A program made the position numbers and the translations under genes. Of a stretch of 64,000 bases of DNA, positions 57,984 through 64,000 are shown piece by piece; positions within the stretch are counted from its first letter, which is position 1; each line of letters begins with the position of its first letter. The notes beneath the pieces were generated by a model. The model searched no databases and was not told the DNA's origin. It saw nothing but the letters and a program-made list of their open reading frames with translations. This stretch comes from Candidatus Thiodiazotropha endoloripes (GTDB taxonomy: Bacteria; Pseudomonadota; Gammaproteobacteria; Chromatiales; Chromatiaceae), in the NCBI RefSeq assembly GCF_001708965.1, contig NZ_LVJW01000003.1:992001-1056000 (forward strand), in the 5' to 3' direction.

Positions 57984-58047
57984 CCATCAATCCAAACGCA
58001 ACCGGGTGCTTAACAGGCGCCCGGACTGCCGCAACCGATAAAGAGCG

Positions 58048-58560
58048 ATGCGCTGTCCATTCTGTGGTGCCCAGGATACCAAGGTGATCGACTCCCGCCT
58101 GGCGGGAGAGGGTGACCAGATCCGCCGGCGCCGGGAGTGCACGGTCTGCAAAGAGCGCTTCACCACCTACGAAACCGCTGAACTCAATCTCCCCTGGGTC
58201 GTCAAGCAGGATGGCAGCCGGGTCCATTTCGATGGCCGCAAACTCCGCGCCGGTATGGATCGGGCTCTGGAGAAGCGGGCCGTCAGTGCCGATCAGGTCG
58301 ATGCGGCGATCAACCACATCACCCGCAAGCTGATGGCGGGCGGGGAGCGGGAGATCAACTCCCTGGCGATCGGTGAACTGGTGATGGAGGAGCTGAAGCA
58401 GCTCGACCAGGTGGCCTATGTGCGCTTCGCCTCGGTCTACCGCAAGTTCGAGGATGTCAACGCCTTCCGCGAAGAGATCGAGCGCCTCGAACAGCAACCC
58501 AGCCCGGAGACCCGGCGTCGCCAGATGGATCTGTTGCCTGATGAGGAAAAAAAGTCTTGA
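58048..58560 (+). CDS. nrdR: Transcriptional repressor NrdR
   Basis: A 170-residue NrdR that represses ribonucleotide reductase genes in response to dNTP/ATP. The zinc ribbon uses Cys3, Cys6, Cys31 and Cys34 ([30 protein letters not shown]). An ATP-cone domain follows ([35 protein letters not shown]). Its stop overlaps the ribD TTG start. Confidence 0.98.
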
Positions 58561-59702
58561 GCAGTGATCTCGACCATCGCTATATGGGGCGCGCCATCCA
58601 ACTGGCGAAGCGGGGCTGGTACACCACCCAGCCCAATCCCAGAGTGGGTTGTGTGCTGGTCAAGGATGGGGAGATCGTCGGTGAGGGCTACCATCGCCGG
58701 GCCGGAGAACTCCATGCGGAGCGCAACGCTCTGGCTGATGCGGGAGAGGCGGCCCGGGGCGCCACCGCCTATGTCACCCTGGAACCCTGTTGTCATCAGG
58801 GTCGGACTCCACCCTGTACCGAAGGTTTGATCGAGGCGGGGGTCAAACGGGTGGTGGCCGCCATGACCGATCCCAACCCCAAGGTGGCCGGCAAAGGATT
58901 CGAACAGTTGAAACAGGCCGGTATCGAGGTCGTCAGCGGCGTACTCGAAACCCAGGCTGCCGCCCTCAATCCCGGTTTCATCAAACGCATGCGACAGGGG
59001 CTGCCCTATGTGCGTTGTAAGATGGGCATGAGCCTGGATGGCCGAACCGCCATGGCCAATGGTGAGAGCCAGTGGATCACCTCCGCCGAGTCGCGGGTCG
59101 ATGTACACAAACTGCGTGCCGCCAGCAACGCCATCCTTACCGGCGTCGGTACCCTGCTCGCGGATGATCCCTCAATGAATGTGCGCATCAGCCACAGTGA
59201 ACTGGGCATCGATGAGGATCTGCAGATCCCCGGCCCGGTGCGGGTGGTACTCGATCCGCAGCTGCAAACCCCGGCCAGCGCCAGGATGCTGAACCTGCCT
59301 GGACAAACTCTGGTGGTCTGCAGCGATGACAATCCGACCCATGGCATCGCTCTGGAGGCGGCCGGGGCTCAGGTGGTTACCGTACCGGCGGTGGAGCAGG
59401 GTCTGGATCTGCACGAAGTGCTCCAATTTCTGGCCGACCAGGAGATCAACGAAATCCTGCTGGAGTCGGGAGCGACCCTGGCTGGCGCCATGCTCGAACA
59501 GGGACTGGTCGACGAACTGATCATCTACCAGGCACCGCACCTGATGGGCGACTCGGCCCGGGGACTGTTCAGGTTGCCCGGGATTCAGCAGATGTCACAG
59601 CGGCTGTCGCTCAACATCACTGATGTGCGACAGATCGGCCCAGATATCCGCATCACCGCCACCCCCCGGATCAACGAGGATAAACCTAGATTCCGCAGTT
59701 GA
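58557..59702 (+). CDS. ribD: Bifunctional riboflavin deaminase/reductase
   Basis: A 381-residue RibD. The N-terminal pyrimidine deaminase has the zinc site His53 and Glu55 in HAERNAL and the Cys pair in [12 protein letters not shown]. The C-terminal reductase has [19 protein letters not shown] and [20 protein letters not shown]. It catalyses two successive steps of riboflavin synthesis. The start is TTG, overlapping the nrdR stop, with GAGGAA upstream. Confidence 0.96.
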
Positions 59703-59786
59703 CCGCTAAAATCTGACGTAAGGTAATGATTTGCTATATTTATTTATGAATTTCATCATCACCCATCAGGTGAAGCCACTCACGCT

Positions 59787-59905
59787 ACATGGATTTGTGA
59801 AAAATCTCAGCGCACCCTGCTGCGTTGTCGTTCTTGTTAAGGGAATCGCCATTAACGGCGAACGACGCCTTGCCGGGTACGCTGAGATTCCACACAAATC
59901 CACGT
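59787..59905. repeat. 119-bp hairpin (MITE-like) element between ribD and ribE
   Basis: The ends ACATGGATTTGTG and CACAAATCCACGT are inverted repeats with one mismatch. The match continues as AATCTCAGCG/CGCTGAGATT, and inside again as CACCCTGCTGCGTTGTCGTTC against GAACGACGCCTTGCCGGGTA, so nearly the whole element folds into one long hairpin. It carries no gene; the small frame across it is a shadow. It looks like a dispersed MITE or REP-type repeat; only one copy is in the window. Confidence 0.7.
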
Positions 59906-59930
59906 TCAACTACGGATTCTAGGATTTAAG

Positions 59931-60596
59931 ATGTTTACCGGAATCATCCAGGCCATTGGCCATGTGCAGTCACTGGAGAGCCGGGGAGGGGATTTGCGCC
60001 TGACAATCGACAGCGGCAATCTTGAACTGGATGATGTGGCGCTGGGTGACAGTATTGCCACCAATGGCATCTGCCTGACCGTCATTGATCTCACTGGGCA
60101 GGGATTCAAAGCCGATGTCTCGCGGGAGACGATCAATCTGACCACCCTGCACAAACTCAAAGCGGGAAGCCCGGTCAATCTGGAGAAGGCGCTGACCCTC
60201 AATACCCGGCTTGGTGGGCATCTGGTGAGTGGTCATGTGGATGGGGTAGGGGAGATTGTGTCGCGTAGTGATGATGCTCGTTCCATTCGCTTCAGCGTTG
60301 CCGCACCCAAGGAACTGGCGAAGTATATCGCCCATAAGGGATCGATCTGTGTTGATGGGGTGAGTCTTACCGTCAATGGCGTTAATGGAGCCCAGTTTGA
60401 GCTCAATCTGGTGCCCCATACTCTGCAGGAGACCATTATGGATGGTTACCAGGCAGGGACTCAGGTGAACCTTGAGGTGGATCTGATTGCCCGTTATCTG
60501 GAGAGGTTGATGATGGGGGAGGCGGCGGCTGAGATGAATACTGCTGGTGTGACCGAAGCGCTGTTGATGGAGCGAGGGTTTATTAAAGGTCGTTAG
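59931..60596 (+). CDS. ribE: Riboflavin synthase alpha chain
   Basis: A 221-residue riboflavin synthase that dismutates lumazine to riboflavin. It has two lumazine-binding repeats: the first begins MFTGIIQAIGHVQSLE with GICLTVIDL, the second has GGHLVSGHVDGVGEIVS and GVSLTVNGVNG. It follows ribD after a 228-bp gap containing a hairpin element. The expected ribBA-ribH-nusB genes do not follow; an accessory region begins instead. Confidence 0.97.
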   Translation: MFTGIIQAIGHVQSLESRGGDLRLTIDSGNLELDDVALGDSIATNGICLTVIDLTGQGFKADVSRETINLTTLHKLKAGSPVNLEKALTLNTRLGGHLVSGHVDGVGEIVSRSDDARSIRFSVAAPKELAKYIAHKGSICVDGVSLTVNGVNGAQFELNLVPHTLQETIMDGYQAGTQVNLEVDLIARYLERLMMGEAAAEMNTAGVTEALLMERGFIKGR

Positions 60597-61186
60597 TAAA
60601 GCCGGCTTACTAATTTTCACCATCTGTTATTCCAACTCAACAATCCACACCCTTCCTCCAGGCGGATACAGGCTTCGGGAGTTACCCGCAGCCATCTCCC
60701 AAACTACACAGAAACAAAAATCTCCCCCCATCATCTCCTGATTAACAGGTGAACATATTAACTCTACACATGAAAAGAACGATACGGGATAAGAGCCAAT
60801 AAACAGAAGAATTACGCGATTTGTCTCAATCAGTGTTTAGTATTACATTTGGACATATACTCAAGAAAATTCTCAACTGATTGAGTGAAAAGGGAAATAA
60901 TCCAATAGACAGGGAGGTTGTTCTTAAGAAACCTCAACTTCCCAAAAATAGATATAAGGCCAACCAGCCCGGACGTTGTGTTGCATGTGTCCTGTTATTC
61001 CACGAATGTGGCAGGAAATAAGGCAGGTTGCCCGCATAATTGTGTGTTTAGGCGGATTAAATGGCAAGATACCTTGGGATAATCGTTAGTTGTACTAAAG
61101 GCGTCATAATACGTTATATGTGCCGTCCACATAATACATTTTATGAGCCGTCCACATAATCCACTGTTAGATTATCAGAAAGAGAA
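60597..61186. other. AT-rich transition region from core genome to cassette array
   Basis: About 590 bp with no credible ORF, and clearly lower GC than the preceding genes. It contains GTTAGTT (61085-61091) and GTTAGAT (61166-61172), both matching or close to the integron core site GTTRRRY. A tandem 25-bp repeat with identical GCCGTCCACATAAT cores lies at 61117-61165. The first may be the end of a long degenerate attC beginning near 60957; the second probably marks the left boundary of the first cassette. No integrase gene is present. Confidence 0.5.
61117..61165 (+). repeat. Tandem 25-bp repeat, two copies
   Basis: Copy one at 61117-61140 and copy two at 61142-61165 differ at a few positions and share the exact core GCCGTCCACATAAT. 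Copy one also contains the inverted repeat TATGTG-CCGTC-CACATA. It lies immediately before the first cassette boundary and may be part of an attI-like or promoter region. Confidence 0.8.
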
Positions 61187-61702
61187 ATGAGCGCCTCATT
61201 CAAATCAGATCTACAAAGCGCCCGAGCGTTTGGTAAAGGTGAATGGAAGAAAGTTATTGAAATTGAAACTGTTGCACTTTCTAAGGAAACGCACAAGCAG
61301 TTCAGATATGCAAAGATCGGAATGGCATATGAGAACCTAGAAGATATAAAAAATGCGAAGAAGAACTACGGGCTAGCTATTTCACACGATGAAAGATGCA
61401 TTCAAGCTCTAGAGGGGCTAGCGAGAGTTTATGTTAAAGAAAACAACCATGACCTTGCATATCAATATGTTCTAAAAGGGCTTCACCTCTCAAGAGACGA
61501 TGATTATCGAGTATCTAAAGTAGTTAAATATATATTGGCAATAATCATTAAGCTTTTTCGTCCTTCTAGACCATTTTCAAAGGTACTAAAAGAGGCAAAA
61601 GATATGGATCAATCTAGGAATAAATGGATTGATTGGGCATTGAAATATAAGGAATGGTATGAATCAAATAACGAACCTTCTAAATATGAATCGTTGCATT
61701 AA
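61187..61702 (+). CDS. Cassette-encoded TPR-like protein
   Basis: A 171-residue hypothetical protein, Lys/Glu/Tyr-rich and AT-biased. Two to three TPR-like helix pairs are visible (FRYAKIGMAYENLEDIKNAK; ALEGLARVYVKENNHDLAYQ), followed by a hydrophobic helix (VVKYILAIIIKLF) and a charged tail. The hydrophobic segment may anchor it to a membrane. It has no operon partner; it is the gene of the first visible cassette and ends one base before its attC. Function unknown. Confidence 0.7.
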   Translation: MSASFKSDLQSARAFGKGEWKKVIEIETVALSKETHKQFRYAKIGMAYENLEDIKNAKKNYGLAISHDERCIQALEGLARVYVKENNHDLAYQYVLKGLHLSRDDDYRVSKVVKYILAIIIKLFRPSRPFSKVLKEAKDMDQSRNKWIDWALKYKEWYESNNEPSKYESLH

Positions 61703-61768
61703 ATCTAACCAGGCCTTACAACGGACGCAGTCGCTGACGCTCCCGCTCCGCTGAAGGCAGCGTTAGAC
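61703..61768 (+). repeat. attC site 1
   Basis: R'' is ATCTAAC (61703-61709, fits RYYYAAC) and R' is GTTAGAC (61762-61768, fits GTTRRRY). The arms continue as complementary GCCTT and AAGGC (L''/L') with three-base spacers, and the centre has GC-rich imperfect symmetry. Length is 66 nt. The next gene's ATG follows at once. Confidence 0.88.
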
Positions 61769-62326
61769 ATGAAAATTAAAGTGTGTTCTTACAATGAAGA
61801 AACTGGGACATTGACCGTAGGGTTTCCTGGTGATATTGCGAATGACCGGACACATGAATTTTTCGATATACCTGAACACATATATCAATCCTTAATACAG
61901 GCATCTGATCCATTAGGGTTCTTTAATGCTAATATTTGGGGAAACCACTATGAAAAACGAGTACATTGGAAAAGCCTGGAGGATTTATTTAGGTACTGCG
62001 AAGAACATATAGGTATAGAAAATATTACAAATGTTAATAACCAGGCAGCAGATGGTGATTCACTACTTCATTTAGCAGCATATTGGGGTGATATCGGAGC
62101 CATACGTTTATTGTTGGAGAATGGAGCAGAAGTAAATACAAGAGGAGATATGGATTATACACCACTCTATGTAGCAATCAACTCAGGTCATCTTAGAAGC
62201 TTTAAATTGTTGTTGGAGGCTGGAGCCGACGTGAATGATACGAATGAATTTGGAACATCATCGTTAAAGCTTGCACTTACCGAAGGTAATGAGGAATTTG
62301 GTGAGTTGGTTCGTCAAAGTGTCTAA
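61769..62326 (+). CDS. Cassette-encoded KTSC-like/ankyrin-repeat protein
   Basis: A 185-residue protein. Residues about 6-60 (YNEETGTLTVGF, EFFDIPEHIYQSLIQA, FFNANIWGNHY) resemble a KTSC domain, a small domain found beside nucleases and in phage proteins. Residues about 95-180 contain ankyrin repeats (GDSLLHLAAYWGDIGAIRLL, DYTPLYVAINSGHLRSFKLL, GTSSLKLALTEGNEEF). The combination suggests a protein-interaction role, perhaps as an inhibitor or immunity factor; that is inference. Its stop lies within the R'' box of attC 2. Confidence 0.75.
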   Translation: MKIKVCSYNEETGTLTVGFPGDIANDRTHEFFDIPEHIYQSLIQASDPLGFFNANIWGNHYEKRVHWKSLEDLFRYCEEHIGIENITNVNNQAADGDSLLHLAAYWGDIGAIRLLLENGAEVNTRGDMDYTPLYVAINSGHLRSFKLLLEAGADVNDTNEFGTSSLKLALTEGNEEFGELVRQSV

Positions 62327-62395
62327 CAAAAACATCAACTTCGCGCCTGTGGCGCCGGATGCTCCTTCGTCGCACCGGTTATGTTAGCGTTATGT
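62321..62395 (+). repeat. attC site 2
   Basis: R'' is GTCTAAC (62321-62327), overlapping the stop codon of the ankyrin gene. R' is GTTATGT (62389-62395), one base off GTTRRRY. The inner part has GC-rich imperfect palindromes (CGCGCC/GGCGCC region and TAACCGG-type arms). Length is 75 nt; the next gene starts 10 bp later. Confidence 0.75.
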
Positions 62396-62405
62396 GTAAG
62401 AGAAA

Positions 62406-62717
62406 ATGGATATTCACTACGTAGGCGTGGGACTCTTATCAGTGGTACTTGCTTTAGTACTAATAAGGCTTCCATTTAAGAAATTGCTTAACAATTTATT
62501 TCTAGCCGTAATCTTGTTAATTGGTTTATTTGTATTAATTGAAATCTTTGCTGGGAATAGTACAGAAGCCGCAAAAATGGTAACCCCATCAAAATCAAGC
62601 AGTGCTTTTGCTTTAGCTCACTCATATCTTGTAGCTTGCGTAGTTAGTCTTGTATATAAATCAATCAGGATGGTAACTGAAACTAAATCTCATAATGAAA
62701 CTGATAGTCACACATAA
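62406..62717 (+). CDS. Cassette-encoded small membrane protein
   Basis: A 103-residue protein with three hydrophobic helices (about residues 6-22, 28-48 and 66-86: GVGLLSVVLALVLI; LFLAVILLIGLFVLIEIF; FALAHSYLVACVVSLVY), then a hydrophilic tail rich in Thr/Glu/Ser/His. No family recognised. Small multi-pass membrane proteins are common cassette products. Its stop codon lies inside the R'' box of attC 3. Confidence 0.65.
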   Translation: MDIHYVGVGLLSVVLALVLIRLPFKKLLNNLFLAVILLIGLFVLIEIFAGNSTEAAKMVTPSKSSSAFALAHSYLVACVVSLVYKSIRMVTETKSHNETDSHT

Positions 62718-62774
62718 CCAGGCGCTCGTGTTGGACGCTTGCTTCGCAAGCGCCCCACAGCTATAACGTTAGTT
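62712..62774 (+). repeat. attC site 3
   Basis: R'' is ACATAAC (62712-62718) and R' is GTTAGTT (62768-62774), both slightly off consensus. The centre contains a clean hairpin GCGCTTGC/GCAAGCG-type (GACGCTTGCTTCGCAAGCGCC). The trailing CGTTAGTTG is shared with the site near 61085. Length is 63 nt. Confidence 0.75.
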
Positions 62775-62803
62775 GCCACACTTATACAAGAATCGGAGAG
62801 CAC

Positions 62804-63130
62804 ATGGAGATCACTATCGAAACTGAAGTAAAAGCATCACCTTCCTCCGTATGGGAAGCGTGGGTTACTCCCGAAGACATTGTGAAATGGAATTTCGCTA
62901 TCGACGAATGGTGCTGCCCAAGGGCAGCAATAAATCTAGAAATTGGTGGAACCTTTAATTATCGAATGGAAGCAAAAGATGGCTCAATGGGTTTCGATTT
63001 TGAAGGCGTATTTACCAAGATCGTGCCAAACGACTCAATTCACTTTAAACTTGAAGATGAAAGAGTGGTCACAGTTGACTTCATAAACAAATACAAGGAC
63101 ACTCACCATTTGAAAAGATTATTCATGTGA
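62804..63130 (+). CDS. SRPBCC/AHSA1-like protein, 3'-truncated cassette gene
   Basis: A 108-residue protein with the AHSA1/START-like beginning (ITIETEVKASPSSVWEAWVT; NLEIGGTFNYRMEAKDGSMG; FDFEGVFTKIVPNDSIHF). Relatives usually have about 135-145 residues with a long C-terminal helix. Here the frame stops shortly after VVTVDFINKYKD, so the helix is missing. No attC follows; instead a transposase gene begins 50 bp later. A GGAGAG ribosome-binding site precedes the ATG. It is probably a broken cassette. Confidence 0.75.
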   Translation: MEITIETEVKASPSSVWEAWVTPEDIVKWNFAIDEWCCPRAAINLEIGGTFNYRMEAKDGSMGFDFEGVFTKIVPNDSIHFKLEDERVVTVDFINKYKDTHHLKRLFM

Positions 63131-63180
63131 GATAGAGTTAAAAAACATACACGGAATGTATAAAAGCCAAGGAGCCGGCA

Positions 63181-64000
63181 ATGACGATATCGCGCAAGCA
63201 ACAGATCTGTCTCGAAGAAACCCCCTATTATCATTGTATATCCCGCTGTGTTCGACGTGCCTTTCTTTGTGGAGAGGATGAGTTAACCGGCCGTAGCTTT
63301 GAACACCGTAGAGATTGGATAGTGGAGAAGCTCAAGCAACTTGACGGGGTATTCTCTATCTCTATCTGCGCCTATGCCGTGATGCACAACCACACCCATA
63401 CTGTTTTGAAAGTCGATCGAGAGTCTGCTTTAAATTGGTGTGATGATGAAGTGATATACCGATGGACCAAGCTCTACAAACCAAGCCCTATCGTTGATCG
63501 ATACCTGAATGGCGTAAAGCTAACAAAGGCCGAATTGGATGTGATTGCCAAAGATATTGAGAAGTGGCGGCACAGACTCTACGATATCAGCTGGTTCATG
63601 CGCAATCTCAATGAAGGTATCGCAAGGAAAGCCAATGAAGAGGATGGTTGTACTGGGAAGTTCTGGGAGGGTAGGTTCAAAAGCCAGGCTCTTCTCGACG
63701 ATGCGGCGCTATTAACCTGTATGAGTTATGTTGATCTTAACCCGATACGGGCAAACATAGCCGATAAACCCGAAGAATCAGATTTTACATCCATACAAGA
63801 TCGCATCAGACATTATCAAAAAGCACTTGAGCAAACAGGGAATCGTATTGAAGCAGCTATTTTAGCGCCAAAGCACTTAGAACCGTTAGTTGGTGGCGAG
63901 CATCAAAACAAAATGTCAGGCTTAAACTTTAGCCTGTCAGACTACCTTGAGCTAACCGATTGGGCAGGAAGAGCCATCAGAGAGGAGAAATCCGGTGCTA
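63181..64000 (+). CDS. HUH/Y1 transposase (IS200/RAYT-like), partial at window end
   Basis: Translating from the ATG at 63181 gives 273 residues with no stop before the window edge. AAGGAG lies six bases upstream. The start (SRKQQICLEETPYYHCISRC), the HUH motif AVMHNHTHTVL, and FWEGRFKSQALLDDAALL with YVDLNPIRANIADKPEESD are those of the REP-associated/IS200-like Y1_Tnp family. The expected catalytic-Tyr helix reads ISWFMRNLNEGIARKAN, where a Tyr is not obvious, so the nucleophile needs checking. These enzymes mobilise REP-like hairpins or IS200-type elements by single-strand chemistry. Confidence 0.85.
   Translation, partial: MTISRKQQICLEETPYYHCISRCVRRAFLCGEDELTGRSFEHRRDWIVEKLKQLDGVFSISICAYAVMHNHTHTVLKVDRESALNWCDDEVIYRWTKLYKPSPIVDRYLNGVKLTKAELDVIAKDIEKWRHRLYDISWFMRNLNEGIARKANEEDGCTGKFWEGRFKSQALLDDAALLTCMSYVDLNPIRANIADKPEESDFTSIQDRIRHYQKALEQTGNRIEAAILAPKHLEPLVGGEHQNKMSGLNFSLSDYLELTDWAGRAIREEKSGA

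Follow-up and report, generated by a model that had tools for sequence, protein, structure and literature searches.

A gene-cassette array located behind ribE is probably a satellite platform of a distributed integron, i.e. of a system in which one integrase serves many attI platforms and IntI would act on this array in trans; judging from the sequence comparisons, we give this reading a probability of roughly 0.78. The array lies in the window, which is the whole analysed stretch of 64,000 nucleotides (positions 992001-1056000 of contig C3 of the source genome G000; 4.46 Mb, 12 contigs). The source is probably a clam symbiont: in G007, another member of the genus (Candidatus Thiodiazotropha), the ribE locus has 100% identity over 3657 bp to NATW01000109.1, a record from a gammaproteobacterial symbiont of the clam Ctena orbiculata. 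The features of the array and its borders, in window positions, are:

59931..60596, + strand: ribE (riboflavin synthase alpha chain; Lum_binding 170 bits), the conserved neighbour left of the array
61091..61170, + strand: attI copy without integrase; 25-bp repeat present twice (GTGCCGTCCACATAAT at 61120 and GAGCCGTCCACATAAT at 61145), crossover GTT at 61166
61166..61762, + strand: cassette 1, box pair GTTAGAT/ATCTAAC
61187-61702, + strand: cassette 1 gene, TPR protein of 171 aa (TPR_8 27.7 bits, above the cut-off of 25.7)
61703..61768, + strand: attC1 (R1 57.6 bits, E 6.7e-13)
61762..62389, + strand: cassette 2, box pair GTTAGAC/GTCTAAC
61769-62326, + strand: cassette 2 gene, 185 aa, KTSC domain and ankyrin repeats (KTSC 36.4 bits, Ank_2 73.5 bits)
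62321..62395, + strand: attC2 (R1 34.6 bits, E 1e-6)
62389..62768, + strand: cassette 3, box pair GTTATGT/ACATAAC
62406-62717, + strand: cassette 3 gene, 103 aa, no Pfam match above cut-off
62712..62774, + strand: attC3 (R1 43.8 bits, E 3.5e-9)
62768..63130, + strand: cassette 4 (start only), a cut-off cassette without attC after it
62804-63130, + strand: cassette 4 gene, 108 aa, AHSA1 domain with the C-terminus cut short (profile positions 1-89 of 125)
63181..64000, continuing to about 64209, + strand: REP-associated tyrosine transposase-like gene (REP_Tyr_transpos 42.3 bits, below the cut-off of 80), right edge of the array

The attC sites were searched for with a purpose-built covariance model (R1; 67 positions, 17 pairs), trained on 22 attC sites from outside the window. 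This search, which covered the window and an overlapping stretch reaching 10 kb further downstream (L019, to window position 74000), gave exactly three matches with E<=5, namely attC1, attC2 and attC3, and so confirmed the three sites proposed in the first-pass annotation; the attC3 match is not fully independent, because the training set included the attC (L207:7617-7679) that ends a cassette with 87% identity to cassette 3 of the window. Moreover, attC1 is 88% identical over 60 bp to one attC of the G000 integron that adjoins intI. In the circle, the first seven bases of a cassette and its own R'' box are paired, and complementarity between them is therefore expected although the array places them at either end of the cassette. 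Such R''/R' boxes had been proposed at the cassette boundaries, and indeed all three attC-terminated window cassettes begin with a box that is the exact (7/7) complement of their own R'' box. Between cassettes, agreement of the boxes was found for 56 of 930 ordered pairs (6%), in a comparison that took in exact chains with attC shorter than 125 bp (n=31, window cassettes included). Greedy chaining of cassettes strays beyond true array ends (a long one-mismatch 'attC' was placed inside coding sequence), and past attC3 it picked GTTGCCA instead of GTTAGTT; the statement that no attC4 follows cassette 4 therefore rests on the R1 search of L019, to window position 74000.

The first-pass annotation set the start of the array at 61166, which is exactly the crossover GTT; it overlooked the attI at 61091-61170 and the cut-off fourth cassette from 62768. 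The toxin-antitoxin or anti-phage role that it had raised for the cassette genes gained no support, as the NCBIfam matches were all far under cut-off and PADLOC gave generic ankyrin/TPR-type matches or none. An Rfam scan of window positions 58000-64000 (E<=1) gave zero matches. Two other elements were observed in the neighbourhood of the array. REP-transposase-like genes that look alike by eye (window 63181-64000, L030:4848-5906 and L189:7397-8395) are placed near two G000 cassette arrays and in the post-ribE region of G009. Between ribD and ribE (window 59787-59905) there is a 119-bp palindromic element, 71-72% identical to its own reverse strand in G002 and G009.

Two matches were obtained between the sequence directly before cassette 1 and the attI that adjoins intI, one of 86% over 44 bp (E 6.6e-9) and another of 88% over 41 bp (E 2.3e-8). 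Exact copies of the 16-mer GTGCCGTCCACATAAT were found at four places in G000: in the window, at the intI locus, at C6:1115221 and at C6:1620590. With one mismatch allowed, this pattern gave 33 matches in 10 of the 22 genomes of the genus, compared with 1 match of the backwards control in all 22 genomes (0 in G000); the two-mismatch level is uninformative, because in G000 the backwards control gave 5 matches versus 7. A GAGAAC-type motif was found upstream, in the span searched, at 13 of 24 attI sites, the window attI not being one of them; at 8 of these 13 sites it lies 62 or 87 bases from GTT, the difference being one repeat. The exact 23-base attI core found zero matches in viral contigs, and carriage of attI by phages is thus unsupported. 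In G014 and G006, a common stretch, CTTACATGGACCCGTCCCGG..., stands in place of GTTA at three attI sites near contig ends (towards the ends of L214 and L215, and after attI on the reverse strand of L199); perhaps this stretch is an insertion element aimed at attI.

No intI was detected inside the window (best tblastn E 1.3), and no intI remnant was found upstream of the window attI, either by tblastn or with a profile built from seven long IntI proteins (best E 0.51), in agreement with the earlier claim that there is no integrase locally. Compared with a complete integron, the window array has attI at its start and attC-terminated cassettes with paired boxes, and lacks an intI adjoining this attI. 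The sole G000 IntI above the TIGR02249 cut-off (431 bits versus 265) is encoded at C6:1513120-1514043, i.e. on a contig other than that of the window, and is adjoined by its own attI and cassette array. Among solved structures, its best match is V. cholerae IntI4 (2a3v; residues 154-458, E 7e-92), and it keeps the stretches GTGMR, HTLRHSFATH and GHADV..IYTH, which we take to be the catalytic motif stretches. The IntI frame (468 aa; L018:8090-9493, - strand) has about 143 N-terminal residues without a Pfam match before its SAM-like and catalytic parts, and the similarity of this extension to the SAM-like domain of the same protein is weak (hhalign probability 17%). Four attI-model sites versus one IntI above the family cut-off were thus found in G000, an excess of attI over integrases being one mark of a distributed integron. 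Of the three sites other than that of the integrase, the window attI is without a detectable intI, that at C6:1115 lies beside a decayed intI (profile search upstream, E 3.8e-23) and that at C6:1620 shows no more than a trace (E 0.054). Of the four attI sites of G000, three are followed by attC and account for the 13 attC matches listed of 14.

A survey of the genus was carried out with a sequence-only attI model (R2), built from 24 sites; the window attI is among them and its R2 match is therefore not independent. R2 gave 108 matches, which merged into 91 sites and came from 21 of the 22 genomes; it misses sites, since it gave zero matches in G009 although an attI stretch of this genome was in the training set. 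G000 has 4 sites and the single-contig genome G008 has 5. The sites are most numerous in G013, G014 and G015 (15, 10 and 13, respectively), the other 18 genomes having any carrying 1-5. Among the attC matches listed (150 of 207), at least 33 of the 91 attI sites are followed within 4 kb by an attC on their own strand, and none has an attC upstream or on the opposite strand; the value of 33 is a lower bound because of this partial list, and random placement of the sites gave a mean of 4.8 and a maximum of 9 (1000 trials). For R2 sites of at least 30 bits the corresponding numbers, among the attC listed, are at least 26 of 58 downstream, 0 upstream and 0 on the other strand. No listed attC is present within 4 kb of 58 of the 91 attI sites. 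Typed intI matches, a list that leaves out weak fragments, were found within 2.3 kb of 16 of the 91 sites (6 of the 33 with attC), and 75 of 91 are without a listed intI nearby; with the profile, intI remnants were detected in 4 of the 17 upstream stretches tested. Contig ends do not account for the missing intI, because even at distances above 2.5 kb from the contig start 39 of 46 plus-strand attI sites are without a listed intI. In G008, 4 of 5 sites are without a listed intI, one of the four having a small remnant (E 7.1e-7). In other genera of the family, under stricter filters, attI-model matches were found in 3 of 55 genomes.

Among the listed genus matches above the IntI cut-off, 13 of 38 are long frames (>450 aa). 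An R2 attI site was found within 2.3 kb of 8 of these 13 versus 1 of the 25 other IntI (among the matches listed), and therefore this attI type is associated with the long IntI. The nearest IntI of G010 is split over two frames, either because the assembly is wrong there or because the gene is broken. A 297-aa recombinase frame, scoring about 100 bits to TIGR02249, was observed to start 120 bases downstream of an attI-like site at all three places where this pair was seen (G005:C1:22984-23674, G005:C1:3149940-3150632 and G001:C36:3233-3922).

The ribE locus was compared between species. RibE is present in 19 of the 22 genomes of the genus, its identity to that of G000 being 98% in G002, 96% in G010 and 94% in G009 and G021. 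The same attI is found past the RibE match in G002 and G010, at a distance of 527 and 528 bases, respectively (527 in G000). The flank from -400 to -60 relative to the crossover aligns with that of G000 without gaps (G002 336/340, 99%; G010 308/340, 91%), and the attI sites are identical to that of G000 at 63/64 (G002) and 61/64 (G010) positions. Past the crossover, the identity to G000 is 44% in G002 and 47% in G010, compared with 38-46% for ten unrelated pairs. No intI was detected by profile upstream of the post-ribE attI in G000, G002 or G010 (best E 0.51, 0.71 and 0.3). The gapless flank in three species and the lack of a detectable intI therefore point to an intI-less attI in their common ancestor, and, given the unrelated sequence past the crossover, to a change of cassettes since that ancestor. 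Cassettes common to these arrays further down are possible, because the G002 and G010 arrays continue to contig ends, and different excisions from one ancestral array, still requiring an integrase, would also fit the cassette differences. The break at the crossover GTT was seen also at loci B and C (both G000/G002) and D (G007, G008, G013 and G015; flanks 67-96%), loci E and F being weaker (flanks 57-77%). Over 386 alignment columns, cassette 3 shares 87% identity with the cassette that comes first at a G006 attI at which no intI was found; this close match, despite the RibE proteins of G006 and G000 being 73% identical, supports cassette traffic between attI sites.

The species comparison thus shows that cassettes have turned over at an attI lacking a local intI, a second mark of a distributed integron, and the simplest account of this turnover would be IntI acting in trans. 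IntI made elsewhere in the genome would recombine circular cassettes into and out of the window attI, the genes behind ribE would change while attI and its flank stay, and the window cassettes would be expressed from the window attI locus. No + strand promoter-like match was found near this attI (positions 60550-61250).

An unlikely alternative is that a complete integron behind ribE lost its intI and is now dead, the species differences predating the loss. The decayed intI genes at other attI loci and the cut-short cassette 4 fit such a relic, yet the gapless flank without detectable intI in three species implies an ancestor without intI, and the cassettes of these species nevertheless differ. 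Whole arrays might also have been swapped by homologous recombination among attI-bearing loci, without IntI, as described for class 1 integrons in PMC7056807; the near-identical attI stretches in G000 could seed such crossovers, but the common stretch is short (about 40-80 bp), no common right flank was seen and at each of the loci A, B, C and D the break coincides with the crossover GTT, which makes this explanation improbable. We rejected, as having very little chance, the insertion of cassettes at an unrelated attG-like genomic site (a plain CALIN): about half of Xanthomonas genomes, for example, are reported to carry CALINs at a distance from the integron locus (in part of PMC12444791), but such an insertion would give a left boundary unlike attI, and it is contradicted by the boundary found here, a near copy of the host attI with its repeats, which recurs at this position in two sister species. 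A normal operon whose hairpins arose by chance, which would agree with all genes being on one strand, was dismissed as practically ruled out by the R1 matches at three sites, the exact box pairs and the gene content changing between species at the crossover; the relatives do not carry the block as a normal operon.

The first-pass annotation also held that the array interrupts the order of the rib genes, which is true in part. The distance between ribE and ribH is about 2.2-2.3 kb in 14 of the 17 genus genomes with both genes on one contig and 24.4 kb in G000, but these genes are also split in G009 (19.7 kb) and G021 (21.6 kb), where the homology to the window ends with ribE, before attI, and resumes at about window position 71600. 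The array is therefore only part of the ribE/ribH separation. It is this loss of homology that indicates the lack of an attI after ribE in these two genomes, since R2 misses sites.

The name CALIN, given to the array in the first-pass annotation, agrees with the IntegronFinder definition (at least two attC without a nearby intI), as worded in passages of PMC9024848, since the array has three attC and no integrase nearby; it is incomplete, because the array, unlike a CALIN, keeps a copy of the host attI at its left end. The same passages describe integrons as consisting of an integrase and, typically, a single nearby attI, integrase-less arrays as degraded, and attI outside class 1 as not detected by IntegronFinder 2.0; attI at arrays such as this one would consequently be missed. 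The attI, the attC and the cassettes in one orientation are shared with sedentary chromosomal integrons, of which there is one in G000, whereas the window locus has no intI and there are several attI loci per genome. Xanthomonas CALINs likewise occupy conserved loci and are said to be mobilisable in trans (sections of PMC12444791). In the complex class 1 integron of SGI1, as portrayed in part of PMC7056807, there are two attI with a cassette at each, but both lie in one mobile element, whereas here attI sites are scattered over the chromosome and their place is kept between species. Delta-attI cassettes of mobile integrons, according to PMC12901181, also involve attI copies that join recombination away from intI; these are parts of attI inside cassettes of resistance arrays, in contrast to the whole attI at chromosomal loci found here. 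No earlier description of a distributed integron was found in the open-licence literature searched.

The distributed integron proposed here may, as a tentative extension that we hold at somewhat below even odds, form a genome-wide network. One long IntI would serve from 4 to about 15 attI platforms, mostly without integrase, some fixed across species and selected for capture and expression of cassettes; its N-terminal residues (about 140) may read the 25-bp repeats, and attI would spread within the genome.

Two sister species thus keep the same docking site, attI, filled with different genes: the integrase-less arrays described here sit on a kept attI, and no local integrase accompanies the change in their content. 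Should IntI work in trans, a single enzyme could operate several points of capture, and among the CALINs of other genomes some may be functional platforms with an unrecognised attI. Orthologous attI loci make a direct measurement of cassette turnover possible.
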